Assembly (NCBI GenBank): GCA_963576725.1
Contig: OY755237.1
Coordinates: forward strand, 59,945,873-60,009,872
Direction of reading: 5' to 3'
From: Azorinus chamasolen
Taxonomy: Eukaryota > Mollusca > Bivalvia > Cardiida > Solecurtidae
Length of the DNA: 64,000 nucleotides
Within the stretch, counting starts at the first letter, position 1, and every line of letters starts with the position of its first letter. The position numbers were made by a program, and so were the translations under genes. Below, one piece after another: positions 1 to 39,034 of this stretch. The notes under the pieces are model-generated. The model was not told where the DNA came from. It saw nothing but the letters and a program-made list of their open reading frames with translations, and did no database searches.

Positions 1-573
1 ATTAATGCTTCATTTTTAGATTTGAATCTTTCAATTACAAATGATAAAGTTTCGTCCAAAGTATACGATAAAAGAGAAGATTTTAATTTTAAAATTGTTA
101 ATTATCCTTTTCTAGATGGGGATGTGCCACGTTCTACATCTTATGGTGTTTATATTTCTCAACTTATTAGGTTTGCCCGAGCCTGTTCTTTGCTTGAAGA
201 TTTTAACAGACGTAATTTAGTTATAACTGATAAACTTCTTAAGCAAGGTTACAGATATCACAAACTTCGGAAAACTTTTTCTAAATTTTATTATCGAAAT
301 TTACCTCTCATTAGTAAATATAATTGCAATCTACGGACGTTACTGCGACAAGGCATTTCTCAACCAGCATTTTATGGGGATGTTATCTACAAACTTAGGA
401 AAATTCGGGGTCATATCCATTTTCATGATTTGTTTATAAAACGCATTAAAACATTTAAAAAGAAAGGTTATGATCCTATTATATTGCAACACACTGCATG
501 TTTGGTTATCGACCCTTTTGCAGTCGGTAGCTACGCTTCCCTCTTTGCTTGCGCGATGACAGGCCGAGGGTAG
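1..573 (+). pseudogene. Naiad reverse transcriptase, C-terminal fragment (copy 1)
   Basis: The frame is open from the first base of the window to a TAG at 571-573 and encodes the last 190 or so residues of a Penelope-like RT: INASFLDLN, DGDVPRSTSYGVYISQLIRF, the LLKQGYRYHKLRKTFSKFYY thumb region and the terminal CLVIDPF segment. The catalytic palm motifs lie off the left edge. It is about 95% identical by eye to the minus-strand copies at 3150 and 9729, so it belongs to the same young subfamily. A SECIS-like structure follows the stop after 6 nt. Whether the upstream part is intact cannot be seen. Confidence 0.85.
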
Positions 574-579
574 TACTCT

Positions 580-624
580 ATGATGGTATACTCTTAAACT
601 TGGATGCAGGAGGAGCTTACCAGA
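580..624 (+). promoter_or_regulatory. SECIS-like element of Naiad copy 1
   Basis: ATGA (580-583) is followed by the 12-nt arm TGGTATACTCTT, a 15-nt loop opening with AAA, the 12-nt arm AGGAGCTTACCA, then GA (623-624). The arms pair as TGGTA/TACCA and CTCTT/AGGAG with a two-base internal mismatch. This is the eukaryotic SECIS plan: a non-Watson-Crick quartet formed by ATGA and GA, a stem of about 12 bp, and an apical AA. It starts 6 nt after the RT stop. The helix below the quartet is not obvious. Confidence 0.75.
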
Positions 625-1399
625 CTCATGTATTATTTTTTCCCTGTCGTGCCCTTAACGGCTTACCTGCAGGTGCTCTGACTTCAGCAAAGTCATTGAG
701 TACATATTTGACGGATTGTCACAGTTATTATGCTATGTTTTACATGTTGTCCTGTGTTCACCGTCATCTATGTTGTGGGTAAGTCCAGCGGGGATACCTT
801 TATTTACAATATTTGTAAAGCTAGGGTGACTTTGAGAGAAGTGCGAGGCTAGGACGTCCGTAAACCGGTTTAAACCCCCAGTGGTGTTTTTGCTGCTGAC
901 CGTGCCAAGGCGGTACTCTCTTTGTCACCCTTCCTTTTGTTTGCCTTGCGTCTTTGTGCTTGTGGTTTGTTCATGTTGTGGAACGTTTGTCCCTGGTTCT
1001 TGTGTCTCTTTTGGTGTTTTCTGTGTTCATTTCGTGTGTGTCTGTGTGCGTTTGGGTGTGTGGTTGTGTGTGTGTGTGTGTGTGTCATGCTGTCTATCGG
1101 TGTTTTGGTGGTGGTTGCGTCTTGCATGTGGCTTTGCCTGCTTGACTTTACTACTTTTCCAATGATATAGAATATGCTGTTATGGTACAGTCAAATACCA
1201 TCGAACAGTCCATAAATTCCCATAAAGTTTGTAGACATTCATTTAACCGTGAAGTGAAGGTGACGCATCTTTGGACCAAGGGATTAAATTAAAAAAATCG
1301 TAAGAGTTCAGTATCTCGTATGTCCTCTATTACTAGCGATATCAGCCAAACATCGGCGTCTGATGCTATTTGTGAGATTCTAAAGACCTGGTTAGGTAG

Positions 1400-2345
1400 T
1401 TGTAGCTATTCTTCATTAAGTGCTCGGTCCAAATCCCTGACGTTATGTACTTCAGGTCGTTCACGGTCTTTGCGTCCCAGATAATCCCAAATATGTTCTA
1501 TTGGTGAAAGATCTGGAAATCTAGCTGGCCATTCGAGTGTCTCGATATTGTTTTCCCTGAGAACATTGTGTGAGCCTCGCGGTGTGAGATCTAGCATTGT
1601 CTTGCTGAAAAACGTCGGCGTTTCCGTTCTTAAGGTACGGAACGATGAGTGAGTGAGTTGGGTTTTACGTCCAACCAACATTATTTCAGTATTTGCAGAC
1701 GGCAGTCGCATGAGACAAGTTATAGTGCTGCCTCACTGGAATACTCCTGCCGCAGGTACATGGCAAGGGAACCCCACCCAGTCACATTATCCTGACACCG
1801 GGCCGACCAGTCCTAGAACTACACCTTTATTGTCGAGCGTAGACAAGGGAGCTACTAGTATCAACTTTTAATGACATGACATGAACGATGACATGAATTC
1901 CAATTTCGTTGCAATATCGGACAGCATTCAGGTTTCCAGCAACTGTCACAAGGTCAGTTTTACCACTGTATGAAATCCCCCCATACCATCACGCTACCGC
2001 CGCCATGACGATCACGTTCAATGACGTTAGCTGGGTCGAGTCTTTCACCCTTACGTCCCCAAACCCGAACGCGACCGTCTGATCCCTTGAGATTAAATCG
2101 TGATTTGTCCGTGAAAACTACCCTATTCTATCGAATTCTCGGCCATCTCAATTTGTCACGAGCCAAATCACGATGTATTGCACGCTGACGGGCAGAAAGC
2201 GGTATTCCAATGTACGCACGATAAGCACGTAGACGGTTTTAGCAGTTTCAGTAGAAATTATGATACCTGTCAAGTTGCTTTCCGGCGACTAGAAAACGGT
2301 TACGTCTTAATTACGTCACTATGAAGCGGGCTTCACGTGGACTCA
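1400..2345 (-). pseudogene. Tc1/mariner transposase relic, split by an insertion
   Basis: The minus strand encodes Tc1-type DDE transposase pieces. 2345-1891 gives FTDKSRFNLKGSDGRVRVWG (first catalytic Asp), the DPANVIERDRHGGGSVMVWG segment and RYCNEIGIHVIV. 1640-1400 gives PYLKN, FQQDNARSH (second Asp) and LEWPARFPDLSPIEHIWDYL (the D/E-containing end). The halves are separated by a 234-bp insertion. An in-frame stop near 2125 and a frameshift near 1580 show it is dead. The breakpoint of the 6.56-kb duplication falls inside it, so only its 5' part recurs at 8606-8925. Confidence 0.85.
1649..1882. mobile_element. SINE-like insertion with 9-bp target duplication
   Basis: This block interrupts the Tc1 frame and is flanked by direct repeats GAACGATGA at 1640-1648 and 1883-1891. 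Removing the block plus one repeat restores the Tc1 reading IHVIVPYLKN. One end begins GTGAGTGAGTTGGGTTTTAC and the other ends in short ATGAC repeats. It has no ORF. The 9-bp duplication and repetitive tail suggest LINE-mobilised insertion. Its family was not identified. Confidence 0.7.
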
Positions 2346-2389
2346 ATTTATTTGTTTCGTTAGAGCTTGTTTTTCTGTGGACGATGTTA

Positions 2390-2548
2390 AGTTGAAATCT
2401 CATTTTAACTGAAAAGCTGCTTAAGCAAGGATATAGATATCATTAAAATAGAAAAACATTCTCCAAATTTGATTACCGAAATCTCTCACTTATTGACAAG
2501 TACAAATGTAATCTAACGGCGCTCCTGCGACACGTCCTGAATTTTATA
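2390..2548 (+). pseudogene. Naiad RT fragment
   Basis: The plus strand reads LTEKLLKQGYRYH, a stop, then RKTFSKFDYRNLSLIDKYKC and LLRH. This is the RT thumb region of the copy-3 subfamily, in inverted orientation just outside the 3' end of copy A. The same fragment recurs at 8971-9129 in unit B. Confidence 0.75.
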
Positions 2549-3098
2549 TCTTCCCCCTATTGTATGGAAAAGTAGTAAAGTCAAGCAGGCAAAGCCACAT
2601 GCAAGACGCAACCACCACCAAAACACCGATAGACAGCATGACACACACACACACACAACCAGACACCCAAACGCACACACTCACACACACGAAATGAACA
2701 CAGAAAACACCAAAAGATACACAAGAACCAGAGACAAACGTTCCACACATGAACAAATCACAAGCACAAAGACGCAAGGCAAACAAAAGGAAGGGTGACA
2801 AAGAGAGTACCGCCTTGGCACGGCCAGTAGCAAAAACACCACTGGGGATTTAAACCGGTTTACGGACGTCATAACCTCACACTTCTCTCAAAGTCACCCT
2901 AGCTTTACAAACATTGTAAATAAAAATATCCCAGCTGGACTTACCCACAACATAGACGACGGTGAACACAGGACAACATGTAAAACATAGCATAATAACT
3001 GGGACAATCCGTCAAATATGTACTCAATGACTTTGCTGAAGTCAGAGCACCTGCAGGTAAGCCGTTTAGGGCATGACAGGGAAAAAGTAATACATGAG

Positions 3099-3143
3099 TC
3101 TGGTAAGCTCATCCTGTATCCAAGTTTAAGAGTATACCATCAT
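3099..3143 (-). promoter_or_regulatory. SECIS-like element of Naiad copy A
   Basis: It has the same 45-nt plan as at 580-624: ATGA (3143-3140), TGGTATACTCTT, an AAA-initiated loop, ATGAGCTTACCA, then GA (3100-3099). One pair in the upper stem is lost relative to copy 1. It begins 6 nt after the TAG at 3152-3150. Confidence 0.72.
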
Positions 3144-3149
3144 AGAGTA

Positions 3150-4932
3150 CTACCCTCGGCCTGTCATCGCGCAAACAAAGAGGGAAGCGTAGCTACCGAC
3201 TGTAAAAGGGTCGATAACCAAACATGCAGTGCGTTGCAATACAATGGGATCATAACCTCTCTTTTTAAATGTTTTAATGCGTTTTATAAACAAATCATGA
3301 AAATGGATATGACCCTGCATTTTCCTAAGTTTGTAGATAACGTCCCCATAAAATTCTGGTTGAGAAATGCCTTGTCGCAGTAACGTCCGTAGATTGCAAT
3401 TATATTTACTAATGAGAGGTAAATTTCGATAATAAAATTTAGAAAAAGTTTTCCGAAGTTTGTGATATATGTAACCTTGCTTAAGAAGTTTATCAGTTAT
3501 AACTAAATTACGTCTGTTAAAATCTTCAAGCAAAGAACAGGATCGGGCAAACCTAATAAGTTGAGAAATATAAACCCCATAAGATGTAGAACGTGGTACA
3601 TCTCCATCTAGAAAAGGATAATTAACAATTTTAAAATTAAAATCTTCTCTTTTATCGTATACTTTGGACGAAACTTTATCATTTGTAATTGAAAGATTCA
3701 AATCTAAAAATGAAGCATTAATGTCAGATTGATTAGCTTTGTTTAAAGACAGTTCTTTTGGGTAAATTGAAGAAATCATAGTATCAAAATAAGGATTATC
3801 TAAATTCAAAATATCGTCTAAATACCTTGAAGTGTTATTAAAAGCATTAACAATATCTGTCTGTGTATCAGGTTTTAAGCTAAGCATATAATCCCTCTCG
3901 TAGCAAAACAAAAACAAATCTGCACTAAGAGGGGCACAATTTGTACCCATGGGTATACCAACAACTTGACGATATATGGTATCCCCATAACGCACAAATA
4001 TATTATCTAAAAGAAAGGTAAGAGATCTACAAACATCAAGGCAAGTCCACATTGTGTAATGTTCAACTTCTGAATTCGAAAAGAATGAACGTTGAACATT
4101 ACAAGCAATGAACATTTTGTTTTCTCTGGCAAAGGTTTTTTCTATTAATTTAATAAGTCTATCCTTTATAAGATGGTGAGGTAGAGTAGTATAGAGTGTA
4201 GAGAAATCATAAGAGCTCAGTAAAGAAATGTTATACTGTTCATTTTCAAGTTTTGTTAAAACATCATTTGAATTTTTTATGGACCAAAAACATTAATACC
4301 AGAATTTTCATATATTTTATCACATATCACATGTTCTTTGATCGTAGTAAGACATAACGTCAAAAGTATAGATAATTTAGTAGTGGTACAGCAGCTAGAG
4401 TTGGCAATAAAACGCGCCTTATAAGGGTTTTATGTAGTTTCGGAATCCAGTACAAAGTAGAAAGTTTATGTTGTTTTATGTTAGGACCAGACTTAAAATT
4501 ATTGCACATTTTTACATGTTCCGAGACTATATCTTTTTCAGGTGTTTGAACTGTTATATAAGTTTTTGAATCAGTTAGCTCCTTCTTTAAAACATCAACA
4601 TAATACAATCTTCAAATAATGATTACATTGTTTGATGCCTTGTCAGCAGGAACAAGAACATAATCTGAATGAAAATTAGAAATGTTTTTCTTCAAGTAGC
4701 GAAATGTAACTCTAGGTCGAGGTGGTAAAAGATGGTAATTTGATTTGTAAAAAGTTATACGTGTATCAATAATGTCGAAAATACATTTCTTCAAATCCGA
4801 AAGGGCATTAATATCAGCATGTTCTCGTCGACACCATTTGATACAGAATTCTTGAATAGATTCCGCAATATGAGTTCGACAAGCGTCAAAATCAATAAGG
4901 GAAGGTAATCTATATTTAGGTCCTTTAGTTAG
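3150..4932 (-). pseudogene. Naiad RT with an in-frame UGA and two frameshifts (copy A)
   Basis: The chain runs GPKYRLPSLIDF, VPADKASNNVIII, UGA (4614-4612), RLYYVDVLKKEL, KLHK, then LYTTLPHHLIKDRL, GIPMGTNCAPL (motif B) and RYLDDI (motif C) to a TAG. The UGA replaces the Cys expected between VIII and RLYY. Two one-base deletions in homopolymers, at about 4428-4431 and 4286-4290, break the frame, so this copy cannot make full RT. A final open stretch of 322 codons from 4115 remains. Copy 3 shows what the intact frame looks like. Confidence 0.85.
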
Positions 4933-4961
4933 GACCACCACCAAAACACCGATAGACAGCA

Positions 4962-5011
<50 letters not shown>

Positions 5012-5213
5012 CCACACACCCACACGCACACACACACACGAAATGAACACAGAAAACACCAAAAGACACACAAGAACCAGAGACAAACGTTCCACACATG
5101 AACAAATCACAAGCACAAAGACGCAAGGCAAACAAAAGGAAGGGTGACAAAGAGAGTACCGCCTTGGCACGGTCAGTAGCAAAAACACCACTGGGGGTTT
5201 AAACCGGTTTTTG

Positions 5214-5648
5214 TTTTTTCTTTGTGTGTCTCTTGATATTTTTATAGTTATGTACATTGGCTGTTTCCTTGTGTTGCTGTTCGGACGACTGTTTGTTTTG
5301 TATGTGGTGTTTCCTGCTCGACTCATTTTTGTACTTTTATAGTGATAGGATACCAACTTCGTAAAATATTGGACCCATTTTCTCACTTTGTTCACTTAAT
5401 ACATTAAAAGTTTATTGAAAAGAAAGGGATATGATCCTATAGTACTACATCATACTGCATGTCTGGTTGTCAACCCTTATACAGATAACAATCACGTTAG
5501 CCTCTTTGCATGAGCGCCGACAAGAAAGATTTAATACTCTATGAAGGCCGCCACCTCTTAAATACATTACCCAGGTCCATTCAATGATTCCCCCCATTGT
5601 TCTCAATAGGCGTGAAAGTAACAGTAAAAGCATGATACAAGTGTGCAA
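5214..5648 (+). pseudogene. Inverted Naiad 3' UTR fragment plus RT tail fragment
   Basis: 5214-5345 matches the plus-sense 3' UTR end seen at 34980-35105 (GTGTCTC...GACTCATTTTTGTACTTT). It is joined to the minus-sense pseudo-LTR at its AAACCGGTTT palindrome. 5396-5545 then encodes KRKGYDPIVLHHTACLVVNP, the end of RT, followed by a partial SECIS-like segment (ATGAAGGCCGCC) that is broken soon after. The same pieces occur at 11785-12219 in unit B. Confidence 0.7.
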
Positions 5649-5649
5649 A

Positions 5650-6490
5650 ATATGACAAGCCGTCTCATTCTGTCTAGAGAGGCCCTGACATACAATTAGT
5701 CAAGGGGAACACACTCAAAAAGACCATTGTTGGTCAGAACCCAATCGAAGTTCAACCCTTAAGAAGCCTACCACTAACAAACAAAGGGTCATATGCAAAC
5801 AGGTTGGATCCAGATGAGACGTCAAGTAACCCGGCATCTTATCTGGATCCAAGCTATTTGACAGACAACATTTTCACAAATCTTTACACACTATGAAGCA
5901 CTTTTACATTTGAAGCAGACAAGCAATTTAGCAGATGAATATTTTCTAAGGATTAAATACATTAAAAAACCTGAATTGCTGAAATATGATTTTTCGTTAC
6001 TGTGGGTCAAGTACTTTCAGTGAAAAAAGAGACAGATTACATAGGGCAATACTTCCAAAAGAGATGTCCCACAGAGTTATTATCCTTGGACACAGCTGCC
6101 TTTTCTCCCAACAAGGTCTATCAGAATATGTAAATACTGCTCAGAAAGTTATAATTTAACCCCTGCACCCTGCACTTGATCTCAATGAGATATATTTGTA
6201 TGTGGAGTGTCATGAATGTAGGTTGAGCACTATAGAAGACATTCACAGGCCGAACGGACAAAGCGGGGCCTATATGCTCCTTCTTATAGTTTCAGGGAGC
6301 ATAATAAAAAATAAAAACATATACTGCATTAGTGACAATCTAATCATTTCCAAATCATCAAATGTAAGAGACGGGCCTCACATGGAACGCTCCAGTGGTT
6401 CTTGACAGGCAGACTGCTATAGCTCTTACCATGTGCCGCATGCTTTTTCACAGGTTAGCTGTAAAGACCCAAGCCGGCCAAGGGAACGTC
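5650..6490. other. No gene seen; AT-rich spacer in unit A
   Basis: The stretch contains only short chance ORFs with no recognisable motif. It includes an inverted pair GGATCCAGATGAGACG / ATCTGGATCC near 5805-5850. It is repeated at about 12220-13060. Confidence 0.5.
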
Positions 6491-6494
6491 TTTA

Positions 6495-6985
6495 AATCCG
6501 GAAACGGACGGAGGACGTCGGATATTTGTATTAGCTCGTTTTTGTCGTACCCTTTATTACTTTTATACAGTTACTCTGTTTGCAGCTCAAGCATTAAGTA
6601 CACGAGCGATAGGTGGATAGTAACTTCACTTTATTATGTGTTCGTTTCACATGCACTTTACCACTGTACTTTACCACGGTTGTTGTAGATGGGTCGGAGA
6701 GGGGATGCGTTTATTTACACTGTTTGTCTTTTAGGATGGGGATGTATACATGTGAGTTTGGGCGCCCAAAAACCGGTTTAACCCCCAATGACTTTTGTCA
6801 CTGACCATTCCAAGGCGGTACTTCCATCTTCCCCTATTGTATGTTTGTTTTGTCTTTGTGCGTCCCTGATGTTTTTATAGTTATGTACATTTGCTGTTTT
6901 GCTGTTGCTGTTCGGGTGGCTGTTTGTTCTGTGTGTGGTGTTTCCTGCATGACTCATCTTTGTACTTTCAGTCTGAATCAGAATT
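6495..6985 (+). mobile_element. Naiad 3' UTR fragment
   Basis: It begins inside the SECIS-like stem (CTTTAAATCC...GGAGGACGTCGGA) and runs through the AACCGGTTTAACCCCC block and GTGCGTCCCTGATG to GACTCATCTTTGTACTTTC. This is the whole 3' UTR of the copy-3/7 subfamily without any RT. It is repeated at 13066-13556. Confidence 0.75.
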
Positions 6986-6989
6986 AATC

Positions 6990-8084
6990 TTAACACTCAA
7001 CACTTTAATTGTTGATCTGGTAAAAATAATAGTGTTCGGAGGGGCACATGTGTCACCTGCTCGCAGCTGACACAAAAACTGTTAATATGCTGCAGTGAAA
7101 TCACAACAAAGGGAAATAACTAAAAAAGTAATGCATGCTAAGTGATGGACCTTAATTACATCTATGGGCTTCAATGAGAGGAAAACACATGTGAAATTTG
7201 AAAGCTCTATAATGATTAGTTTAGAAATGACAGCAAAAACAAGACAGTGTGACGGACAGACAGACAGACGACGGAAAAGTGGTCCATAATTGACACACTG
7301 ACTCTCGGCAGGTTACACAATAAAATTGCAACAACTACACCTCTTACTATTGCATTCAGTAATTATAGGATATACTCTAAGCCTTTTGATCAAATAATGT
7401 GAATTTAGATTAACTTTGCTATAACGAATGTTAGATTGCTTTAAAGGGAAAATAACGTTTTTGGCACATTATTCAAAATGTTATTAATGGCAGAAGAAGG
7501 AACATAGTATGATGAAGCAGAAGACAGTTTAAGAGGGGTTATACAAACTGACTGCTGTAGTGAAATTAGCAGAGTATGAGGAATCTGGACAGAAGACAGA
7601 GTCAGTTTAAGTTTTTGATTTTAAGTATAGGGAGACTATTCATTAAATCCGTAGTAATTGTATCACCCAACCGTAAAAAGCGGCATATTGGTAAACTACA
7701 AATAAATATAAATATACGAGAAAAGTAATGTAAAGAAGAAAAACATACCAGAGGTTACGACAAAAGAAATAAAGAACCCTGTAAGGATATGCAGGAAAAT
7801 ATTGAACGGGTAAAAAGTAAGAAAAAACGAGTACGGTAAATGAAAACGTAGTAAAGTCAACACTAGAGAAAACGCAAAGGGAATTCATCTTAAAAGGGAA
7901 ATTAAAATAGTCACACAATATGTCGGTGAGTACCGAAGCCACCATGAAGTACAAATTACGGTGTTAAGTTATGAGGAAACGCATTGAATGTAGAACAATT
8001 TCTGCAGGAGGAAGACAACAATATGTACGGGGATACGTTTCACGGCCGCCACACTGCACAAACAAACACTATAGTGTTTATAAA
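6990..8084. other. No gene seen
   Basis: AT-rich sequence with a short (GACA)n run at 7253-7270. The longest open frames are compositionally driven (Phe/Tyr-rich on the minus strand) and match nothing I recognise. It is repeated at 13561-14655. Confidence 0.5.
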
Positions 8085-8584
8085 TGAACAAAGCAGGCAA
8101 TGCCACATAAAAGACGCAGTCACCACCAAAACATCGATAGACAACATGTCATACACACACATACACATGCCCACACACCCAAACACACGCACACACACGA
8201 GAGGAACACAGAAAAAACTAACAAACACACAACCGCCAGAGATAAATATTACAAACATGATCAAAAGTATGAGTACAAAGACACAAGAAAAACAAAAGTA
8301 AGGGTGACAAAGAGAGTACCGTCTTGGAACGTTTAATATCAAAATCACCACTGGGGGTTTAAACCGGTTTACAGACATAATTTCCTCACACTTATCTCAA
8401 AGTCATCCTAGCTTAACAAATAGTATAAATGAAGGTATCACCGCCGCCGGACATTCCCACAACATAGAAGACAGTAAACACATAAAAATATGTAAAACAA
8501 AGCATAACTGTGAACAATCTGTCAAATATGTACTCAATGTATTTGCTGAAGTCAGAGCAACTACAGGGAATCCGTTAAGGGCAC
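8085..8584 (-). mobile_element. Naiad 3' UTR, cut by the duplication breakpoint
   Basis: This divergent 3' UTR has an interrupted CA-rich tract (8150-8200), the TTTAAACCGG block (8355-8375) and the GTACTCAATG segment. It stops at 8584. The unit-B counterpart at 14656-15155 continues into the SECIS-like stem and RT, so the loss here is due to the breakpoint. Confidence 0.75.
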
Positions 8585-8605: not shown

Positions 8606-9677
8606 CGTTAGCTGGGTCGAGTCTTTCACCCTTACGTCCCCAAACCCGAACGCGACCGTCTGATCCCTTGAGATTAAATCGTGATTTGTCCGTGAAAACT
8701 ACCCTATTCTATCGAATTCTCGGCCATCTCAATTTGTCACGAGCCAAATCACGATGTATTGCACGCTGACGGGCAGAAAGCGGTATTCCAATGTACGCAC
8801 GATAAGCACGTAGACGGTTTTAGCAGTTTCAGTAGAAATTATGATACCTGTCAAGTTGCTTTCCGGCGACTAGAAAACGGTTACGTCTTAATTACGTCAC
8901 TATGAAGCGGGCTTCACGTGGACTCAATTTATTTGTTTCGTTAGAGCTTGTTTTTCTGTGGACGATGTTAAGTTGAAATCTCATTTTAACTGAAAAGCTG
9001 CTTAAGCAAGGATATAGATATCATTAAAATAGAAAAACATTCTCCAAATTTGATTACCGAAATCTCTCACTTATTGACAAGTACAAATGTAATCTAACGG
9101 CGCTCCTGCGACACGTCCTGAATTTTATATCTTCCCCCTATTGTATGGAAAAGTAGTAAAGTCAAGAAGGCAAAGCCACATGCAAGACGCAACCACCACC
9201 AAAACACCGATAGACAGCATGACACACACACACACAACCAGACACCCAAACGCACACACTCACACACACGAAATGAACACAGAAAACACCAAAAGATACA
9301 CAAGAACCAGAGACAAACGTTCCACACATGAACAAATCACAAGCACAAAGACGCAAGGCAAACAAAAGGAAGGGTGACAAAGAGAGTACCGCCTTGGCAC
9401 GGCCAGTAGCAAAAACACCACTGGGGATTTAAACCGGTTTACGGACGTCATAACCTCACACTTCTCTCAAAGTCACCCTAGCTTTACAAATATTGTAAAT
9501 AAAAATATCCCAGCTGGACTTACCCACAACATAGACGACGGTGAACACAGGACAACATGTAAAACATAGCATAATAACTGGGACAATCCGTCAAATATGT
9601 ACTCAATGACTTTGCTGAAGTCAGAGCACCTGCAGGTAAGCCGTTAAGGGCATGACAGGGAAAAAGTAATACATGAG

Positions 9678-9722
9678 TCTGGTAAGCTCATCCTGTATCC
9701 AAGTTTAAGAGTATACCATCAT
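9678..9722 (-). promoter_or_regulatory. SECIS-like element of Naiad copy B
   Basis: Same 45-nt structure and spacing from the stop as in copy A (ATGA at 9722-9719, GA at 9679-9678). Confidence 0.72.
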
Positions 9723-9728
9723 AGAGTA

Positions 9729-11511
9729 CTACCCTCGGCCTGTCATCGCGCAAACAAAGAGGGAAGCGTAGCTACCGACTGTAAAAGGGTCGATAACCAA
9801 ACATGCAGTGCGTTGCAATACAATGGGATCATAACCTCTCTTTTTAAATGTTTTAATGCGTTTTATAAACAAATCATGAAAATGGATATGACCCTGCATT
9901 TTCCTAAGTTTGTAGATAACATCCCCATAAAATTCTGGTTGAGAAATGCCTTGTCGCAGTAACGTCCGTAGATTGCAATTATATTTACTAATGAGAGGTA
10001 AATTTCGATAATAAAATTTAGAAAAAGTTTTCCGAAGTTTGTGATATCTGTAACCTTGCTTAAGAAGTTTATCAGTTATAACTAAATTACGTCTGTTAAA
10101 ATCTTCAAGCAAAGAACAGGATCGGGCAAACCTAATAAGTTGAGAAATATAAACCCCATAAGATGTAGAACGTGGTACATCTCCATCTAGAAAAGGATAA
10201 TTAACAATTTTAAAATTAAAATCTTCTCTTTTATCGTATACTTTGGACGAAACTTTATCATTTGTAATTGAAAGATTCAAATCTAAAAATGAAGCATTAA
10301 TGTCAGATTGATTAGCTTTGTTTAAAGACAGTTCTTTTGGGTAAATTGAAGAAATCATAGTATCAAAATAAGGATTATCTAAATTCAAAATATCGTCTAA
10401 ATACCTTGAAGTGTTATTAAAAGCATTAACAATATCTGTCTGTGTATCAGGTTTTAAGCTAAGCATAAAATCCCTCTCGTAGCAAAACAAAAACAAATCT
10501 GCACTAAGAGGGGCACAATTTGTACCCATGGGTATACCAACAACTTGACGATATATGGTATCCCCATAACGCACAAATATATTATCTAAAAGAAAGGTAA
10601 GAGATCTACAAACATCAAGGCAAGTCCACATTGTGTAATGTTCAACTTCTGAATTCGAAAAGAATGAACGTTGAACATTACAAGCAATGAACATTTTGTT
10701 TTCTCTGGCAAAGGTTTTTTCTATTAATTTAATAAGTCTATCCTTTATAAGATGGTGAGGTAGAGTAGTATAGAGTGTAGAGAAATCATAAGAGCTCAGT
10801 AAAGAAATGTTATACTGTTCATTTTCAAGTTTTGTTAAAACATCATTTGAATTTTTTATGGACCAAAAACATTAATACCAGAATTTTCATATATTTTATC
10901 ACATATCACATGTTCTTTGATCGTAGTAAGACATAACGTCAAAAGTATAGATAATTTAGTAGTGGTACAGCAGCTAGAGTTGGCAATAAAACGCGCCTTA
11001 TAAGGGTTTTATGTAGTTTCGGAATCCAGTACAAAGTAGAAAGTTTATGTTGTTTTATGTTAGGACCAGACTTAAAATTATTGCACATTTTTACATGTTC
11101 CGAGACTATATCTTTTTCAGGTGTTTGAACTGTTATATAAGTTTTTGAATCAGTTAGCTCCTTCTTTAAAACATCAACATAATACAATCTTCAAATAATG
11201 ATTACATTGTTTGATGCCTTGTCAGCAGGAACAAGAACATAATCTGAATGAAAATTAGAAATGTTTTTCTTCAAGTAGCGAAATGTAACTCTAGGTCGAG
11301 GTGGTAAAAGATGGTAATTTGATTTGTAAAAAGTTATACGCGTATCAATAATGTCGAAAATACATTTCTTCAAATCCGAAAGGGCATTAATATCAGCATG
11401 TTCTCGTCGACACCATTTGATACAGAATTCTTGAATAGATTCCGCAATATGAGTTCGACAAGCGTCAAAATCAATAAGGGAAGGTAATCTATATTTAGGT
11501 CCTTTAGTTAG
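9729..11511 (-). pseudogene. Naiad RT with an in-frame UGA and two frameshifts (copy B)
   Basis: Same architecture and the same two homopolymer frameshifts as copy A, so those mutations predate the duplication. The UGA at 11193-11191 again lies between VIII and RLYY. Differences from A include Arg for Ile in KQGYRYH and Phe for Tyr in ERDFML. In both cases B has the residue seen in other family members, so A carries the derived state. Confidence 0.85.
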
Positions 11512-11540
11512 GACCACCACCAAAACACCGATAGACAGCA

Positions 11541-11582
<42 letters not shown>

Positions 11583-11784
11583 CCACACACCCACACGCAC
11601 ACACACACACGAAATGAACACAGAAAACACCAAAAGACACACAAGAACCAGAGACAAACGTTCCACACATGAACAAATCACAAGCACAAAGACGCAAGGC
11701 AAACAAAAGGAAGGGTGACAAAGAGAGTACCGCCTTGGCACGGTCAGTAGCAAAAACACCACTGGGGGTTTAAACCGGTTTTTG

Positions 11785-12219
11785 TTTTTTCTTTGTGTGT
11801 CTCTTGATATTTTTATAGTTATGTACATTGGCTGTTTCCTTGTGTTGCTGTTCGGACGACTGTTTGTTTTGTATGTGGTGTTTCCTGCTCGACTCATTTT
11901 TGTACTTTTATAGTGATAGGATACCAACTTCGTAAAATATTGGACCCATTTTCTCACTTTGTTCACTTAATACATTAAAAGTTTATTGAAAAGAAAGGGA
12001 TATGATCCTATAGTACTACATCATACTGCATGTCTGGTTGTCAACCCTTATACAGATAACAATCACGTTAGCCTCTTTGCATGAGCGCCGACAAGAAAGA
12101 TTTAATACTCTATGAAGGCCGCCACCTCTTAAATACATTACCCAGGTCCATTCAATGATTCCCCCCATTGTTCTCAATAGGCGTGAAAGTAACAGTAAAA
12201 GCATGATACAAGTGTGCAA
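11785..12219 (+). pseudogene. Unit-B copy of inverted Naiad 3' UTR and RT tail
   Basis: Duplicate of 5214-5648, with the same junction at the AAACCGGTTT palindrome and the same broken RT tail. Confidence 0.7.
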
Positions 12220-13065
12220 AATATGACAAGCCGTCTCATTCTGTCTAGAGAGGCCCTGACATACAATTAGTCAAGGGGAACACACTCAAAAAGACCATTG
12301 TTGGTCAGAACCCAATCGAAGTTCAACCCTTAAGAAGCCTACCACTAACAAACAAAGGGTCATATGCAAACAGGTTGGATCCAGATGAGACGTCAAGTAA
12401 CCCGGCATCTTATCTGGATCCAAGCTATTTGACAGACAACATTTTCACAAATCTTTACACACTATGAAGCACTTTTACATTTGAAGCAGACAAGCAATTT
12501 AGCAGATGAATATTTTCTAAGGATTAAATACATTAAAAAACCTGAATTGCTGAAATATGATTTTTCGTTACTGTGGGTCAAGTACTTTCAGTGAAAAAAG
12601 AGACAGATTACATAGGGCAATACTTCCAAAAGAGATGTCCCACAGAGTTATTATCCTTGGACACAGCTGCCTTTTCTCCCAACAAGGTCTATCAGAATAT
12701 GTAAATACTGCTCAGAAAGTTATAATTTAACCCCTGCACCCTGCACTTGATCTCAATGAGATATATTTGTATGTGGAGTGTCATGAATGTAGGTTGAGCA
12801 CTATAGAAGACATTCACAGGCCGAACGGACAAAGCGGGGCCTATATGCTCCTTCTTATAGTTTCAGGGAGCATAATAAAAAATAAAAACATATACTGCAT
12901 TAGTGACAATCTAATCATTTCCAAATCATCAAATGTAAGAGACGGGCCTCACATGGAACGCTCCAGTGGTTCTTGACAGGCAGACTGCTATAGCTCTTAC
13001 CATGTGCCGCATGCTTTTTCACAGGTTAGCTGTAAAGACCCAAGCCGGCCAAGGGAACGTCTTTA

Positions 13066-14655: not shown

Positions 14656-15720
14656 TGAACAAAGCAGGCAATGCCACATAAAAGACGCAGTCACCACCAA
14701 AACATCGATAGACAACATGTCATACACACACATACACATGCCCACACACCCAAACACACGCACACACACGAGAGGAACACAGAAAAAACTAACAAACACA
14801 CAACCGCCAGAGATAAATATTACAAACATGATCAAAAGTATGAGTACAAAGACACAAGAAAAACAAAAGTAAGGGTGACAAAGAGAGTACCGTCTTGGAA
14901 CGTTTAATATCAAAATCACCACTGGGGGTTTAAACCGGTTTACAGACATAATTTCCTCACACTTATCTCAAAGTCATCCTAGCTTAACAAATAGTATAAA
15001 TAAAGGTATCACCGCCGCCGGACATTCCCACAACATAGAAGACAGTAAACACATAAAAATATGTAAAACAAAGCATAACTGTGAACAATCTGTCAAATAT
15101 GTACTCAATGTATTTGCTGAAGTCAGAGCAACTACAGGGAATCCGTTAAGGGCACGGCAGGGAAAAAGTAATACACGAGTCTGGTAAGCTCATGCCGTTA
15201 CTGAGCTTAAGAGTATACCATCAAAGAGTACTATCATCGGCATGTCATTGCACAAGGAAAGAGAGAAGCGTAGCTGCCGACTGTAAAGGGGTCAATAACC
15301 AAGCATGCAGTGCATTGCAATATAATGGGGTCATAACCTTTCTTCTTAAAGGTTTTAATGCATTTTATGAATAAATCATGAATATGGATATGACCACGAT
15401 TTTTACTAAGTTTGTTGATAACATCACCATAAAATTCTGAGAAATGCAGTAACGTTCGTAGATTGCAATTATATTTACTAATGATTGGTAATTTTTCGAT
15501 TATACAATTTAGAAAAGGTTTTCCGAAGTTTGTGATATATGTAACCTTGCTTAAGACGTTTATCAGTTATAACTAAATTTACGACTGTTAAAATCTTCCA
15601 GCAAAGACCAGGCTCGGGCAAACTGAATAAGTTGAGAAGTATAAATCCAATGAGATGTAGCACGGGGCACATCTCCATCTAGAAAAGGATAATTAACTTT
15701 TTTTTAAATTGATATCTTCC
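14656..15720 (-). mobile_element. Naiad 3' UTR and RT C-terminal fragment
   Basis: Minus-strand RT remnants at 15720-15231 (NLVITDKRLKQGYIYHKLRK and neighbours) carry several frameshifts and stops. They are followed by a SECIS-like stem and a divergent 3' UTR with an interrupted CA tract. The lower half of this 3' UTR is what was copied into unit A at 8085-8584. Confidence 0.75.
15180..15224 (-). promoter_or_regulatory. Degenerate SECIS-like element
   Basis: The 45-nt layout is retained (arms TGGTATACTCTT and ATGAGCTTACCA, GA at 15181-15180), but the quartet reads TTGA instead of ATGA and the loop starts AAG. This is a decayed version belonging to a dead RT copy. Confidence 0.55.
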
Positions 15721-22270: not shown

Positions 22271-22308
22271 GAAGATGTCATCTGCTAGGTTCAACTAGTG
22301 ACATCTCA

Positions 22309-24815: not shown

Positions 24816-25655
24816 AGCCTGTAACCCACATATTTCTTTTCGATTTCAATGTTAAGGATACTATAATGCACAAAATGTGAAATTTTGAAAACAGGTCTTG
24901 GATAAGTTTTTTAGAAATTTACGAAAATATCACTGATGTCATAATTCTTGTACTGTCGCATATGTAAAAGACAGGAAACACCCTTATGTTGATTTCATGC
25001 TAATTACTCGCAAATAAAGTCTGTAAATATGGAAAAGTAGTCAAACAGGGAGAGCCACACACGAAATGACACCGCACCAAACACCATCTAACAAGAAACA
25101 GTAAAGCCACACGACAAAACATAACAGGACGCATATCAAGACGAAACACATTAAACATTAAGCATATTAAACAACAAAATTGACCGTAGGCTGAAAGCAG
25201 GAGTGCCGCCTTGGAACGGCCAGCAGCCAAAAAAGGGGATACTGGGAGACTTAAACCTGCTTTACGGGTACCCAACCTAGTCCTTATCCCACTTTCACAA
25301 AAGTCAAAATGTAAATAAAATTCCCCCTCCAGACAACTCCACAACATGCATAACGATGTCTGTAAAAATGAAAATGATTTGAAAATAAACGTTAGAGGTA
25401 AACAAGCGACGTCATCATGTAAATGACGTCATAATGTAAAAGTACGGGAACACTATTTGAAACACTTCTACATCGACATTTAATAAAAGATAAATCGCAA
25501 AAAGATACAATTACTAGTGGATATTAAGCACGCACAACTGTTTTGTTTGAAAAAGAATAAACTTGACATCGTAGACATGCACTCGATGACTATTCAGGTC
25601 AGAGCAGCTGTGGAGAAGTCATTTGGGGTACGACAGAACTGGCAAAATACAAATA

Positions 25656-25700
25656 TCTATTTTCCTCCCTCCGTAAACGGGTTTAAGAGGGAATCTTCAT
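25656..25700 (-). promoter_or_regulatory. SECIS-like element of Naiad copy 4
   Basis: The layout is ATGA (25700-25697), arm AGATTCCCTCTT, a loop opening AAA, arm GGGAGGAAAATA, then GA (25657-25656), again 45 nt. About 8 of 12 positions pair (including G-U), and shifting the arms allows TTCC/GGAA. The stop lies 6 nt upstream. Confidence 0.6.
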
Positions 25701-25706
25701 AGAGTA

Positions 25707-27413
25707 TTAAGCATTTTCCGTCGTCGCACAAGCAAAGAAGAAAGCATAATGACCAACTGTAAAGGGGTCGACCACCAAGCATGTAGTGTGCTGCAATATA
25801 GAGGGGTCATATCCCTTTTTAATGAATTGTTTTATGCGTTTGACAAACAAAGTATCAAAATATGTGTGTCCAATAATTTTTCGAAGTTTGTAAATGACAT
25901 CACCGTAAAACCCCCCATGTGAAATACCTAACTTTAGAAAAGTACGTAAATTACAATTGTATTTGCTGATGAGTAGAACATTACGGTGGTAAAATTTTGA
26001 AAATGTTTTACGAAGTTTGTCATATCTGTAGCCCTGTTTTAGTAGTTTCTCAGTGATAATAAGGTTACGATTGTTAAAATCATCAACAGAGGAACAAGCT
26101 CTAGCAAAACGAATAAGCTGAGAAATGTATACACCGTAACATGTAGCTCGGGGAACATCCCCATCCAAATGAGGATAGTTAACTATTTTAAAATTAAAGT
26201 CATCCCTTTTGTCATAAATTCCAGAAGAAATTGTTCCATTGTTTATAGATAAATTTAAATCTAAAAAGGCTGCAGATATGTCAGAACTATTTGCTTTATT
26301 AAGCTTGAGCTCCCAAGGGTAAATTGAGGTTATCATAGACTCAAAGTATGGGTTATCAATATTAAAAATGTCGTCTAAATAACGTGCTGTATTGTTAAAG
26401 GCAATGATGACATCCGCCTGTGAATCGCTGTTAAGGTTAAGCACAAAATCACGTTCATAACAAAACATAAACAAGTCTGCAATTAAAGGAGCACAATTGG
26501 TTCCCATGGGAATACCAATGGCCTGGCGATAAACAGAATTACCAAAACGAACAAATATATTGTCTAACAGAAACGTAATAGCGTCACAAAGATCTAAACA
26601 TGTCCACGAGGTATATTTATTTGTAACGTCATTGATAAAGAACGCATGTCTAGAATTACAGGCAATAAATGATATTTTTTCTCTGGCAAATGTTTTATTT
26701 ATAAGATTAGTAAGTTTTATCTTAATTAGATCGTGTGGTAATGTGGTATAAAGTGTAGAAAAATCATAAGTGCTTATAGTGTTAGCTTGGTGTTGCTTGA
26801 TTTTTAATTTAGTTAAAACCTCATTGGAGTTTTTTATAGACCAAAAAAGGTTAATTCCTGAATTCTCATAAGCTTTATCGCAGTAACGCTTTTCATGTTC
26901 TTTGACCGCTGTTAGACACGATGTAATTAGTTTGGATAGTGCAGTTGTGTGTGCATGAGACAGAATTTGCTATGAAGCCTGATTTATATGGCGTTTTATG
27001 GAGTTTAGGTATTCAGTACATCGTCGGAAGTTTATGATGTGTGATTAATATATCAGCATTGAACTGTTTACATTTATTAACATGTTCAGATATTATGTCG
27101 TTTTCAGACTTAGAGACCACAATATATGACTTTGTCTTAATTAGTTCTTGTTCTAAAACATCCACATAATAAAGTCGTCAAACGATAATTACATTGTTTG
27201 ACGCTTTATCAGCTGGGACAAACACGTATTTAGAGTGAAATTCTTGTATACTATTTTTAAGAAGCGAACTGAAGTCTTAGGTTTAGGCGGAAGAAGGTGA
27301 ATGTTAGATTTGTAAAACGCGATACGTGTATCCATTATATTTGAAATTTGTTTCATCCATTTTGTAAGGGCACTATTGTCTGCATGTTCTCGGCGACACC
27401 ATTTTACACTGAA
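25707..27413 (-). pseudogene. Naiad RT with an in-frame UGA and frameshifts (copy 4)
   Basis: Segments in order: WCRREHAD, LLPPKPKT, NNVIIV, UGA (27180-27178), RLYYVDVLEQEL, TLYTTLPHDLIK, RFGNSVYRQAIGIPMGTNCA and RYLDDIFNIDNP, ending in TAA at 25709-25707. The UGA is at the same Cys position as in the other copies. Frame breaks occur around 27230-27270 and 26960-27000. The 3' open frame of 267 codons from 26507 is intact. Confidence 0.8.
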
Positions 27414-27920: not shown

Positions 27921-30900
27921 CTAAACCTTTCTTGTCGGCGTACATGCAAAGAGGCCAGCGTGATTGCCAACTGTAAAAGGGTTCACAACCAAACATGCAG
28001 TATGTTGTAGTAATACAGGATCATATCCCTTTTTAATGAATTGTTTTATATATTTGATGAACAAAGTGAGAAAATGGGTATGTCCAATAATTTTACGAAG
28101 TTTGTAAATCACATCACCATAAAATTCAGGATGTGAGATACCGTGTCGCAAAAGTACCTTGAGATTACATTTGTACTTGCCAATAAGCGAGAGATTTCGA
28201 TAGTAAAATTTAGAGAAAGTTTTTCTTAGTTTATGGTATCTATATCCTTGTTTAAGCAGTTTTTCAGTTAAAATGAGATTTCGACTGTTAAAATCGTCAA
28301 TAGATGAACAAGCTCTAGCAAAACGAATAAGTTGAGATATATAAACCCCGTAAGATGGAGCACGGGGAACATCCCCGTCAAGATTAGGAAAATTTACAAT
28401 ATTAAAATCAAAATCATCTCTTTTGTCATATATTTTAGAAGAAATCATTCCATTATTAATTTTAAGGTCTAGGTCAAGAAACGCTGCATAATTGTCAGAC
28501 GGGTTAGCTTTATTCAATTTGAGTTCTTTAGGATAAATTGTAGGAATTAGAGCATCAAAGAAAGGGTTATCTAAGTTAAAAATATCATCCAAATATCGAC
28601 AAGTTTCATTGAAGGCTTTTATAACATCTTCTTGTGATTGAGGATTCAAACTCAACATGAAATCTCTCTCATAGCAGTACAAAAACAAATCTGCGACAAG
28701 TGGTGCACAATTCGTACCCATGGGAATACCAATTACCTGACGGTATATAGCATTCCCATAACGTACAAATATGTTATCCAAAAGAAAGGTTAGTGCTTCG
28801 CAAACTTCTGAGCAAGTCCAATTGGTGTAATATTTCATTTGCTCGTCAGTAAAGAAAGCTTTTTCAGCATTACATGCCAAGAATTATGTTTTTTCTCGGA
28901 CAAATACTTTCTGGATCAAGTTAGTAAGCTTATCCTTAATTAAAATATGAGGAAGAGTTGTGTACAGAGTAGAAAAATCGTACGTGCTTACAGTGGATGC
29001 AAGATACCTTTTGTTCTTAAGTTTGTTTAAGACTTCTGAAGAGTTCTTAATAGACCAGAAGAGATTTATTCCAGAATTTTCATAAGTCTTATCACAGTAA
29101 AATTTTACATGTTCCTTTACCTTCGTTAAACAAGAAGTCAAAAGTATAGACAATTAAGTAGTTGTACATGAACTAGAATTTGCAATGAACCGCGCTTTAT
29201 ATGGTTTTTTATGTAGTTTTGGTAACCAATACATAGTAGGAAGTTTATGTTGTGTAATTTTAATATCGGTTCCAAATTGTTCACACTTTTTGACATGGTC
29301 TGAAATGATGGTCTTTTCGTCAGTGGTAACTGAAATGTATGACTTGGTATTAATAATTTCCTGCTTCAAGACATCGATATAATGTAATCGTCAAATAATA
29401 ATCACATTATTTGATGCCTTATCAGCAGGAACAAAAACGTATTTTGAATGGAAATCCTGTAAACCCTTTTTAAGATGTCTAAATGAAGTTCTAGGTTTAG
29501 GTGGAAGAAGGTGTTTATTAGAGCTGTAAAAGGAAATGTGTTTATCAATTATATCAAAAATTAGTTTTTTCCAACAAGAAAGGGCATTAGACTCAATATG
29601 TTCTCTTCGACACCATTTAATACTAAAATTTTGTAAAGCCTCCGCAATCTGAACTCGACAAGAGTTAAAATCTATCAAGGATGGTATTCTATATTTGGGA
29701 CCTTTATTCAAAAGAGATCGTAGACGTTTATCTTTAATTATCTCAAAATTACCAGTAATCACATGACCAGTCGGAGAATATCAAAATTTTGAGGTGGCGC
29801 AATCTCAATTATCAGGAATATTATCATTAATATTAAGGTCGGCCACAATTTTATTATAGTTGAAAATTGTATTTCTGATGGGTTTGTTATATTGGTAGCA
29901 GATGATAGGTGGTTCTGTATTTTTAAAGTATTTAGGAATAGTGTCAATTACATTTTTGTCTCTAAAAATACTTTGGAGGTCAATAAAATCAATACCTTTA
30001 TTAATAAAAGGAATTTTCAAGAAGAATCTTTGGTGTTCAGATAATTTGTCGATGTGCGGTCTGAGAACATGTAGAGTAAAGCTTTGTATCAAACTAGCCG
30101 TTCCTATGAGAGGATCTGATCGAAAAATAATTTTATCGGCTTGCTCGTCAATTTCTTTTAATGAACATATAGATAAGGAGGAAAGTCTAGAAAGCATGAC
30201 ATGTTTACCCGAAGTTAGGCGTAAAGTATGTAGATCAAGAAGAGTCATTTTCAAACGAGATTTTCGTTTAATATTACCATTTTTGCGAATGCCATGCGAT
30301 CGAGATTTGCGTTTTCTAATAGAAAAAATTGAAAAAATATCTATATCTGGTTCTTTTGAAATATTTCCAGTCTGGTAAATATTATCATTCAGTCCTAAAG
30401 GAAAAGGTGTTTGCAATTTTTTGATCCAATTTAATTCAGATATAAATCTAGCTTTCGATTTAAAGCTACTAGTCGCCTCCTTATCATATGTTATATGCTC
30501 AACAATTTGTACTAAAACATCTTTAAAAGAATGGCCAGATTTCCGAAAGTGTTGGTATAAATAATTGTTTAGTTTACGATTTCGACACTGATATGCATGC
30601 TCACGAAATCGAGTTTTCAAAGCACGTCCTGTTTGTCCTACGTACTGTATACCGCAACTAGGCGCGTTTCAAGTTAAAACATAAATAACGTTAGTAGTAG
30701 TACAATCAACGTCTGAGTTTATCTTGACATTAAATGTTCTACCATTAACTGTAGATTTTATAGTGGAATTACAAGAAATGTTACTACAACATACGCACCT
30801 CTTAGCAAAGCACTTTTGGATAATTGGATACACTCTGTGTCGCCTGCATAAGGACCGTTTACGAATAGAAGAAACATTTTGGATAACAGATTTTAAAGGT

Positions 30901-31112
30901 GAAAGTACAACTCTTGGTCCATTGAAAAAACATTTATTAATAGAAAGAGATGGTATGTGAAAAGATGATGCCGACTGAAGATTAAGTTGTTTTAAACGAA
31001 CAAAAGGTTGAAGGGAAGAGAAATTAGAAATATTTCTGGGTACTTGTACAGACGACACAGATTGCATATTTAAAGCTTTTAGTTCTGTTCGAGGTATTTT
31101 AACTTTATTCAT
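27921..31112 (-). CDS. Naiad GIY-YIG/RT polyprotein with four in-frame UGA codons
   Basis: A single frame of 1,063 codons runs from ATG (31112) to TAG (27923-27921). Residues: RCVCCS Cys cluster (105-110); VIY 142-144 and YVG 157-159 of GIY-YIG; CCHH positions 148, 153, 172/188 and 194; candidate catalytic Glu226; linker CxC 436-438; GPKYR 471-475; RT motif A DFSTLYTTLP (Asp712), motif B GIPMGTNCAP (795-804), motif C YLDD (Asp842/843). UGA codons at residues 148, 436, 444 and 574 replace expected conserved cysteines, read here as selenocysteine. UAA codons at 653 and 743 are true nonsense mutations. No frameshift is present. By family, the protein nicks DNA and reverse-transcribes the element RNA. 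Confidence 0.85.
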
Positions 31113-31224
31113 ATTGGAAAGTGATAGAGGGGCACCTGTATTGTGTTCATCAACACGTCAATTACATTAGTGTAGCTACCAAGTGCATCAAATTGTTGGT
31201 GAACACAACACCTACCACGAAGTC

Positions 31225-32640
31225 TAACAAAGATTTTATAATTTTGCTACGGCAGATTTCGAAATCTATCAAAGAAGGTAGTCTGTATATAGGTCCCTTA
31301 GTTAGTAAAGTACGGAGACGTTTGTTTTCGATAATGTCAAAATTGCCTGTAATAACATGACCAGCCTCGGCGTAACAGAACTTAGAAGAATTACAATTTC
31401 AACTAACAGGAGTATTATTTACAATATTAAGGTCCGATACAATTTTATTGTAAATAAAAATAGTATTCCTAATAGGTATTTTATACTTATAGCAGATAAT
31501 TGGAGATTCTAAGTTTTTGAAATAGGCTGGGGTGGTATGAATTACGTTTTTATCGCGAAATATTGATTGTAGATCGATACAATCTATACCTTTATTAACA
31601 AAAGGAATTTTCAAAAAATATCTTTTATGGGCAGACACTGAATCAACGTGTGGTCGAAGAACATGCCGAGTGTAGTTCTGAATGAAACAAGCTGTATTAT
31701 ATAAAGGATCTGTTCGTAAGATCACTTTGTCTGCTTCTATGTCAATGTCTCTTATGGAAGAAATAGACAAAGAACATAGACGAGAGAGCATAGTATGTTT
31801 GCCAGATTGTAGACGTATATTGTGTAAATCTGAAACAGACATTTTAAGTCGAGCTTTGCGTTTGATATTGCCGTTTATACGTAAACCATGTGATCTGGTT
31901 TTTCGTTTTCTAATTGAGTAAATAGAAAATATATCAATGTTAGGGTCTTTAGAAATATTTCCGGTTTGATATATGTTATCATTTAGGCCTAAAGGGAAAG
32001 GTGTCTGTAATTTTTTTTATCCATTTGAGTTCTGCCATAAATCTGGCTTTAGATTTGATGCTGTTTGTAGAATTATAATCATAAACAAGATGTTCAACTG
32101 GCTGAACTGTAATATCTTTAAATGAATGACCCGATTTACGAAAATGCTGGTAGCGTCCAGTTTGTCCTACATATATTGTATACCACAAAGTGGTGCATAT
32201 CATGTTAAAACGTAAATCACATGAGAAGTTTTACAGTTAATATTTGATGTAAATTACGTGGTAAAAACTCTACCATTAATGTTAGATTTAATGGTAGAAT
32301 TACAAGATAGATATTTGCAGCACATACACCTCTTAGCATTGCACTTATCAATAGTTGGATACATTCTACGTCTTCCGTGCAAAATCCGTTTATTTTGAAT
32401 TATATTAACTACACTACTATGTTGAATAGATTTATGTAACGGAGAAACCACCACTTTTGGGCCATTGTGAAAACAGCTGTTAATAGAAACAGAAGGTAGG
32501 TGGAACGATTTTGCAGAATAAAGGTTTAGTGGCTTTAAACACAATGAAGGTTGAAACGATCTAAAATTACCATTTTGTGGAATTTGCACAGATGTCGTAG
32601 AACCCCATTTTTTGATTTTTATTTGAATTCAGCATACTTT
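31225..32640 (-). pseudogene. Naiad 5' part: endonuclease, linker, start of RT (copy 5)
   Basis: Minus-strand pieces: VQIPQNGNFRS, CNAKRCMCCKYLSCNSTIKS, VIYVLT, UGA (32202-32200), YAPLCGIQY, then a 2-nt insertion and an internal deletion that removes the segment after the YIG motif, then YQHFRKSGHSFKD, FMAELKWIKK, the linker with UGA (31401-31399)-AAT-TGT, SSKFCY, AGHVITGNF and GPIYRLPSLIDFE, where it ends. Its linker keeps UGA in CxC, but the next cysteine is TGT (31377-31375) where copy 3 has UGA. It lies upstream of copy 3 in the same orientation. Confidence 0.8.
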
Positions 32641-33704: not shown

Positions 33705-33860
33705 CTGTGAACTAGTCAGCTCCTTCTTTAAAACATTAACATTATACAATCTTCAAATAATTATTATATTATTTGATGCTTGTCACCAGAAATTACTTTG
33801 AATGAACATTGGAAATGTTTTTCTTCAAATAGTGAAATGTAACTCTAGGTCGAGGTGATT
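33705..33860 (-). pseudogene. Small Naiad RT fragment with UGA
   Basis: The minus strand reads ASNNIIII, UGA (33755-33753), RLYNVNVLKKELTSS, which is the RT fingers segment around the fourth UGA site. The flanks of the fragment are unrelated. Confidence 0.7.
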
Positions 33861-38910: not shown

Positions 38911-39034
38911 TAGGAAACGTAGCAAATAATAACCAACACGAGACAATTGGTCTGATATTATTCCTTTGTCATTTTGCTTATGGGCTTTGACGTAGGAACA
39001 GTATACGGAATAACCTTTTTTAGCTCCATGTTAG

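Follow-up and report, generated by a model that had tools for sequence, protein, structure and literature searches.

A 45-nt motif at positions 580-624 of a 64,000-nucleotide stretch of DNA (the window) closely follows the stop codon of an RT reading frame and recurs elsewhere in the stretch. The question was whether this motif is a SECIS element and, if so, whether it serves UGA codons lying in frame in the ORF upstream of it.

SECIS cores in the window

An earlier note on this DNA had listed eight 45-nt cores. All eight coordinates were confirmed on the strands reported, and a ninth core, overlooked there, was found at 51994-52038(-). The spacing that had been written down, ATGA-12-AAA-12-GA, sums to 33 and not 45; the true pattern is ATGA-N12-AAA-N24-GA. 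ATGA, AAA and GA had been assigned to all eight copies and were exact in seven of them, 15180-15224(-) having TTGA and AAG instead. With the ninth core included, the exact pattern was present in 8/9 Naiad copies of the 64-kb window. Two or three subfamilies had been proposed; three were found, with cores 580, 3099, 9678 and 15180 in subfamily 1, cores 27870 and 34607 in subfamily 2, and cores 25656, 51994 and 63169 in subfamily 3. The SECIS-bearing 3' ends are the following.

566..639, plus strand: SECIS of subfamily 1, core 580-624; TAG 571-573 within helix I; Rfam 24.3 bits
3084..3157, minus strand: SECIS of subfamily 1, core 3099-3143; duplicate of the insertion at 9663-9736; no Rfam match at E<=10
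9663..9736, minus strand: SECIS of subfamily 1, core 9678-9722; no Rfam match at E<=10
15165..15238, minus strand: decayed SECIS of subfamily 1, core 15180-15224; TTGA for ATGA, AAG for AAA; no SECIS fold; no Rfam match at E<=10
25641..25714, minus strand: SECIS of subfamily 3, core 25656-25700; stop TAA; Rfam 28.3 bits
27855..27928, minus strand: SECIS of subfamily 2, core 27870-27914; stop TAG 27921-27923; Rfam 26.0 bits
34593..34666, plus strand: SECIS of subfamily 2, core 34607-34651; Rfam 26.0 bits
51979..52052, minus strand: ninth SECIS, subfamily 3, core 51994-52038; ORF stop lost (CGG); Rfam 36.4 bits, above the gathering score
63155..63228, plus strand: SECIS of subfamily 3, core 63169-63213; stop TAA; Rfam 27.3 bits
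5335..6972, plus strand: split 3' end of subfamily 2; an insert of about 0.9 kb, at about 5567-6491, interrupts the SECIS (ATGA at 5541); duplicate at 11906-13543

Cores 27870 and 34607 were identical across the 86 nt that were folded. Cores 3099 and 9678 were counted as one insertion because both belong to a 6.56-kb stretch that is duplicated in tandem (2025-8584 versus 8606-15155, 99.7% identical), a duplication that inflates the count of Naiad fragments. The insert of about 0.9 kb in the split subfamily 2 SECIS (5567-6491, and about 12138-13062 in the duplicate) lies near the TTAAA of that element, and its flanks overlap by about 9 bases when placed on an intact copy.

Model matches and folding

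All of Rfam (4227 families) was searched with cmscan. SECIS_1 (RF00031) matched 6/9 copies at E<=10, and in all six matches ATGA, AAA and GA were in register with the model positions. The best SECIS_1 match in the window was the ninth core, 51994-52038(-), with 36.4 bits (E 0.0013) at a gathering score of 35. The other five scored below gathering (28.3, 27.3, 26.0, 26.0 and 24.3 bits; E 0.21 to 2.6), and copies 3099, 9678 and 15180 gave no SECIS_1 match at E<=10 in this search. The SECIS proposal, against which background scores in every copy would have counted, withstood the covariance-model check, one match standing above gathering.

Minimum free energy (MFE) folds were computed for 86-nt pieces. 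The full SECIS plan appeared in the folds of 580, 3099, 9678, 27870 and 34607, which represent three distinct sequences. These five folds had helix I, quartet strands of 7 or 8 bases, helix II with a 2x2 loop, the AAA bulge, and a helix III of four pairs. In the best folds of copies 25656 and 63169 the AAA was paired, and the SECIS plan was absent from the MFE folds of copies 51994 and 15180. Folding of helix I below the quartet, which the earlier note had put forward for checking, was thereby found in 5/9 copies (3/7 distinct sequences) and missing in the other four. Folding z-scores against shuffles ranged from -3.0 to -0.8. On sequence and predicted fold, the cores look like genuine eukaryotic SECIS elements of form 2, in which the AAA is bulged below a mini-helix.

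Chance matches and covariation

The bare pattern had nine matches in the window, eight of them in Naiads, as compared to a mean of 1.5 and a maximum of 5 in 300 dinucleotide shuffles. A stricter descriptor required ATGA, AA and GA, a length of 43-47, and at least nine of ten helix II pairs. It gave eight matches (seven in Naiads) versus 0.013 per dinucleotide shuffle, a comparison biased towards these copies because the fold of copy 580 was the source of the descriptor. Copy 25656 reached 8/10 helix II pairs in this scoring, and copy 15180 was left unscored because it lacks ATGA.

Two matches were rejected as SECIS elements. The exact pattern at 48102-48146(-) lies outside Naiad 3' ends, has at most 7/10 helix II pairs nearby, and had no Rfam match. 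The AU-rich descriptor match at 34121-34167(-) likewise lies outside Naiad 3' ends and had no Rfam match. A covariance model built from seven of the copies found only the nine cores at E<=10 and left 48102 and 34121 unmatched; seven of the nine match by construction, and the remaining two, 9678 and 34607, have the same sequence as rows already in the model.

Covariation was analyzed in an alignment of seven distinct rows, from which 9678 and 34607 had been omitted beforehand, being identical here to 3099 and 27870. Paired cells amounted to 84.5% over the seven rows versus 43-52% with the partners slid by 1-3 columns, a contrast in which the consensus structure is favoured because it was taken from one of the rows. 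In shuffles that ignore the relatedness of the rows, the mean was 77.4% and 0/500 were as high as 84.5%. Cells changed on both sides numbered 16 against a shuffle mean of 7.7 (0/500 as high), and eight pairs had a two-sided change (30/500 as high). Further pair types showed no excess over shuffles in the seven rows (451/500 as high). Weakly kept were the pairs 19-57 (3/7 rows), 5-71 (2/7) and 6-70 (4/7).

Compensating changes among the three subfamilies occurred in helices II and III. The helix II pair adjoining the 2x2 loop, for example, is A-U, U-A and G-C across the three subfamilies. One further exchange in helix III was seen by eye in the split copy at 6492. RNAalifold, run unaided, returned 17 pairs in the same helices, five of them with two-sided changes. 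A chance hairpin was rejected, as the structure exceeded shuffles in both the covariation and the descriptor tests.

A conserved hairpin may also have another use. It could serve retrotransposition, for example if the RT of the element recognises it as a 3' RNA structure; its likeness to SECIS would then be incidental. Its conservation across three subfamilies would fit such a role, and the region kept in 3'-anchored copies is where signals for target-primed recognition would be expected. The letters that are invariant in the alignment, however, include those of a SECIS (TGA, AA and GA), and an RT-binding structure would leave the UGAs at conserved sites upstream (see below) unexplained. We therefore regard RT recognition in place of SECIS function as very unlikely, although one hairpin could serve both roles.

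The carrier element

The most complete copy of the element carries GIY-YIG and RT in a single frame, the endonuclease (EN) standing ahead of the RT (permuted order). Its UGA codons are at residues 163, 451, 459 and 589, and two UAA codons, at 668 and 758, are due to decay. The main coding features are as follows.

27921..31157, minus strand: Naiad-type ORF of the most complete copy; 1079 codons in one frame from a tentative start, among them four UGA and two UAA, ending in UAG
30408..30689, minus strand: GIY-YIG endonuclease domain (Pfam PF01541), residues 157-250, spanning UGA 163
9729..10871, minus strand: RT open frame of subfamily 1; upstream continuation in a different frame
25707..26969, minus strand: RT open frame of subfamily 3; RVT_1 E 0.003, below cut-off

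PF01541 was matched with 26.2 bits (cut-off 22.6, E 9.9e-06) by a piece of 156 residues. Pieces starting after UGA 163 or three residues before it scored 21.1 and 20.5 bits, respectively, and GIY-YIG was absent from the Pfam results for longer pieces (451 and 667 residues). For the RT, Pfam gave weak matches to RVT_1 (E 0.003 and 0.011, both below cut-off); in the most complete copy a match of this kind lies at about residues 769-860, in the same frame as GIY-YIG. Pfam gave no RVT_1 match in subfamily 1, and NCBIfam gave weak RT matches only. No RT relatives were found in the Protein Data Bank, where one search returned nothing and another three unrelated chains (E 0.45-0.65), and none were confirmed among viral and prokaryote contigs. 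Two predicted structure models were of poor quality (pLDDT 44 and 51). The RT motifs YLDD, GIPMGTNCAPL and DFSTLYTTLPH are present and look PLE-like.

At residues 451-453 two copies have U-x-C, which agrees with the C-x-C of the linker only if U is equated with C. A nuclease placed before the RT with C-x-C (here U-x-C) between them is the plan of Naiads.

Decay is widespread among the copies (UAA, UAG and frameshifts). No intact ORF was seen in the 64-kb window, in which copies are decayed or truncated. These observations are also what would be expected if the elements had been selenoprotein elements formerly and the SECIS elements of the window were now fossils with no working source. The same applies to individual SECIS elements, of which 15180 is decayed, 5541 is split by an insert and 51994 has lost its stop. 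On the other hand, the identity within two pairs of copies, 93.4% over 740 bp and 98.4% over 807 bp, suggests fairly recent activity. Extinction of the source is possible but rather unlikely in our judgement; it is compatible with the SECIS reading and would merely place it in the past.

In-frame UGA codons

The in-frame UGAs that had been reported for the RT ORF are present. They are common to diverged copies, and the sequence that follows one of them is under purifying selection. Their positions are listed below.

30669..30671, minus strand: UGA 163, in the GIY-YIG domain; most complete copy
32200..32202, minus strand: UGA at site 163; diverged copy 31213-32643(-)
29805..29807, minus strand: UGA 451, first position of U-x-C between nuclease and RT; most complete copy
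31399..31401, minus strand: UGA at site 451, U-x-C; diverged copy 31213-32643(-)
29781..29783, minus strand: UGA 459; the diverged copy 31213-32643(-) has TGT (Cys) at 31375-31377
29391..29393, minus strand: UGA 589, upstream of the RT motifs; most complete copy
27178..27180, minus strand: UGA at site 589; subfamily 3
33753..33755, minus strand: UGA at site 589; short fragment, from a gapped search
11191..11193, minus strand: UGA at site 589; subfamily 1
4612..4614, minus strand: UGA at site 589; subfamily 1, tandem-duplicate copy

In copies other than the most complete one, the four sites were occupied by TGA in 6/7 cases and by TGT (Cys) in 1/7; with the tandem duplicates 4614 and 11193 counted once, the figures were 5/6 and 1/6. 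The exchange for Cys was confined to site 459, and sites 163, 451 and 589 were seen as TGA only. Residue 163 falls on the position of a metal-binding Cys in Penelope-like nucleases, and selenocysteine may therefore serve as a metal ligand there.

Another account would attribute the UGAs to the ordinary decay that dead copies undergo, and the SECIS-like fold to chance. The copies have indeed decayed, with UAA, UAG and frameshifts, and 4/22 of the other stops in the tblastn stretches were TGA, one of these in the split subfamily 2 copy, where it occupies a Cys site close to the end of the ORF (first codon bases 5511 and, duplicated, 12082). Stops at the four UGA sites, however, were TGA in 9/9 cases, whereas 18/22 of the other stops (six of the 22 lying in one frameshifted stretch) were TAA or TAG (one-sided Fisher p 3.5e-05). 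Without the duplicates and the frameshifted stretch, TGA stood at 8/8 versus 3/13 (p 0.0008, Fisher), and without the copy that had defined the sites at 4/4 versus 3/11 (p 0.026, Fisher). The fragment at 33755 was excluded from all Fisher counts. The TGA at 5511/12082 represents either decay or a further UGA site.

Selection on the RT

Downstream of UGA 589, the dN/dS values of the RT in the three subfamily pairs were 0.128 (317 codons), 0.099 (376 codons) and 0.060 (317 codons). These values are rough because dS, at 1.5 to 3.1, is near saturation. Since dN/dS is low and a UGA stands upstream in all three subfamilies, translation of the RT most likely took place with the UGA present, and the shared UGA upstream of it was, judging from these comparisons, probably read through. 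The shared UGA sites and the dN/dS values speak against simple decay of the UGAs, and the structure above shuffles against a chance fold, so that an explanation by decay plus chance is extremely improbable.

Stop codon and helix I

Cellular SECIS elements usually lie well downstream of the stop codon. In the present elements, as had been claimed, exactly six bases separate the core from a preceding TAG or TAA in 8/8 of the copies listed earlier; copy 51994 has CGG at this position, hence the stop is found in 8/9 copies. Extra stops occur just upstream in 15180 (a TGA adjoining the TAG) and in 63169 (a further TAA located three codons upstream). Alignment columns 6-8 correspond to the ORF stop codon, save in row 51994. 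Columns 7 and 8 were each paired in helix I in 7/7 rows (A-U or G-U, and G-U, A-U or G-C, respectively), and column 6 in 4/7. Helix I therefore takes in the stop codon, an arrangement that is possibly unreported.

All nine copies have another in-frame TAA, which overlaps the AAA (or AAG) motif. After loss of the first stop, as in 51994, this TAA would end the frame inside the SECIS. The further suggestion that 5'-truncated copies would keep a signal placed at the end of the ORF fits the pattern seen in the window.

Other repeats in the surroundings

Fragments of the 3' UTR lie head to tail at 4990-5210 and 11513-11781, beside CA repeats. They stand upstream of RT frames that are 5'-truncated and share their orientation, and they resemble the pseudo-LTRs of Penelope-like elements. 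Two tRNA-like stretches, 51503-51575 (56.0 bits) and 51788-51860 (48.8 bits), were found in a repeat adjoining a Naiad copy; this repeat is probably a tRNA-derived SINE. An open frame of 589 residues at 22270-24039(+) has, by eye, the appearance of a LINE-like RT, and related DNA is present at 37585-38936. Satellite-like tandem repeats of about 140 to 170 bases occupy 44192-45447 and 60719-61648, which are related to each other, as well as 50054-50854 and 53604-54520.

Interpretation

With a probability of roughly 0.9, the cores are form 2 SECIS elements that occupy the 3' end of the only ORF in Naiad-type Penelope-like retrotransposons and serve its in-frame UGAs. The SECIS in the mRNA of the element would recruit the SECIS-binding protein and the selenocysteine elongation factor of the host. 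Selenocysteine would then be inserted at the UGAs of the nuclease domain, of the linker region with U-x-C, and upstream of the RT motifs. The predicted product is one full-length EN-RT protein ending at UAG or UAA, the terminating stop codon itself being paired, according to the predicted structure, inside helix I of the SECIS. We infer that the host machinery reads the UGAs as selenocysteine and that active copies are located elsewhere in the genome.

The raw sequence supports a mobile element encoding a nuclease-RT that would, as a selenoprotein, contain multiple selenocysteines, and the stop codon within helix I adds a concrete detail. The selenium status of the host is a possible limit on the retrotransposition of such elements, which also spread SECIS elements through the genome. 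Selenoprotein elements of the Naiad type are likely under-annotated because gene finders take UGA as a stop and break the ORFs.

More speculative, and unlikely, is an extension of this reading in which the element scatters compact, ready-made SECIS modules in the host genome. It arises from two features of the SECIS, its inclusion of the stop codon and its survival on 5'-truncated copies; nine SECIS cores were counted in 64 kb, none of them seen with an intact ORF. Host transcripts bearing a UGA could in this way become new selenoproteins. Pairing of the stop codon could couple termination to opening of the SECIS, each terminating ribosome resetting the signal, and retrotransposition could be selenium-dependent.

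Comparison with known systems

Craig, Yushenova, Rodriguez and Arkhipova reportedly described in 2021 (Mol Biol Evol 38:5005, a paper cited in PMC11167929) that Naiads of spiders and clams independently evolved to code for selenoproteins with multiple selenocysteines. The kind of element is on this account known, and the present copies are members of it. The Naiads of clams and spiders are said to have, in common with the plan seen here, an N-terminal GIY-YIG domain, a C-x-C linker and a C-terminal RT, together with several in-frame UGAs that they read as selenocysteine; the present elements are not known to differ from them. The present hairpins resemble the form 2 SECIS of RF00031 in the ATGA/GA quartet, the approximately ten pairs of helix II, and the AAA bulge below a mini-helix.

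Naiad is in use as the name of a class of PLEs in PMC10941475. Cellular SECIS elements differ from the present ones in their placement: they are located in the 3' UTR, according to PMC8310308, whereas helix I takes in the stop codon here. A closer parallel in this respect is the GPX4 of fowlpox virus, whose SECIS lies within the coding sequence, as stated in PMC6769590 and PMC8310308. In both systems a parasitic genome has its own SECIS, situated at or in the reading frame instead of far downstream. The virus has acquired a glutathione peroxidase gene of its host, whereas in the present case the predicted selenoprotein is the nuclease-RT of the element itself, for which the most complete copy has four UGAs.
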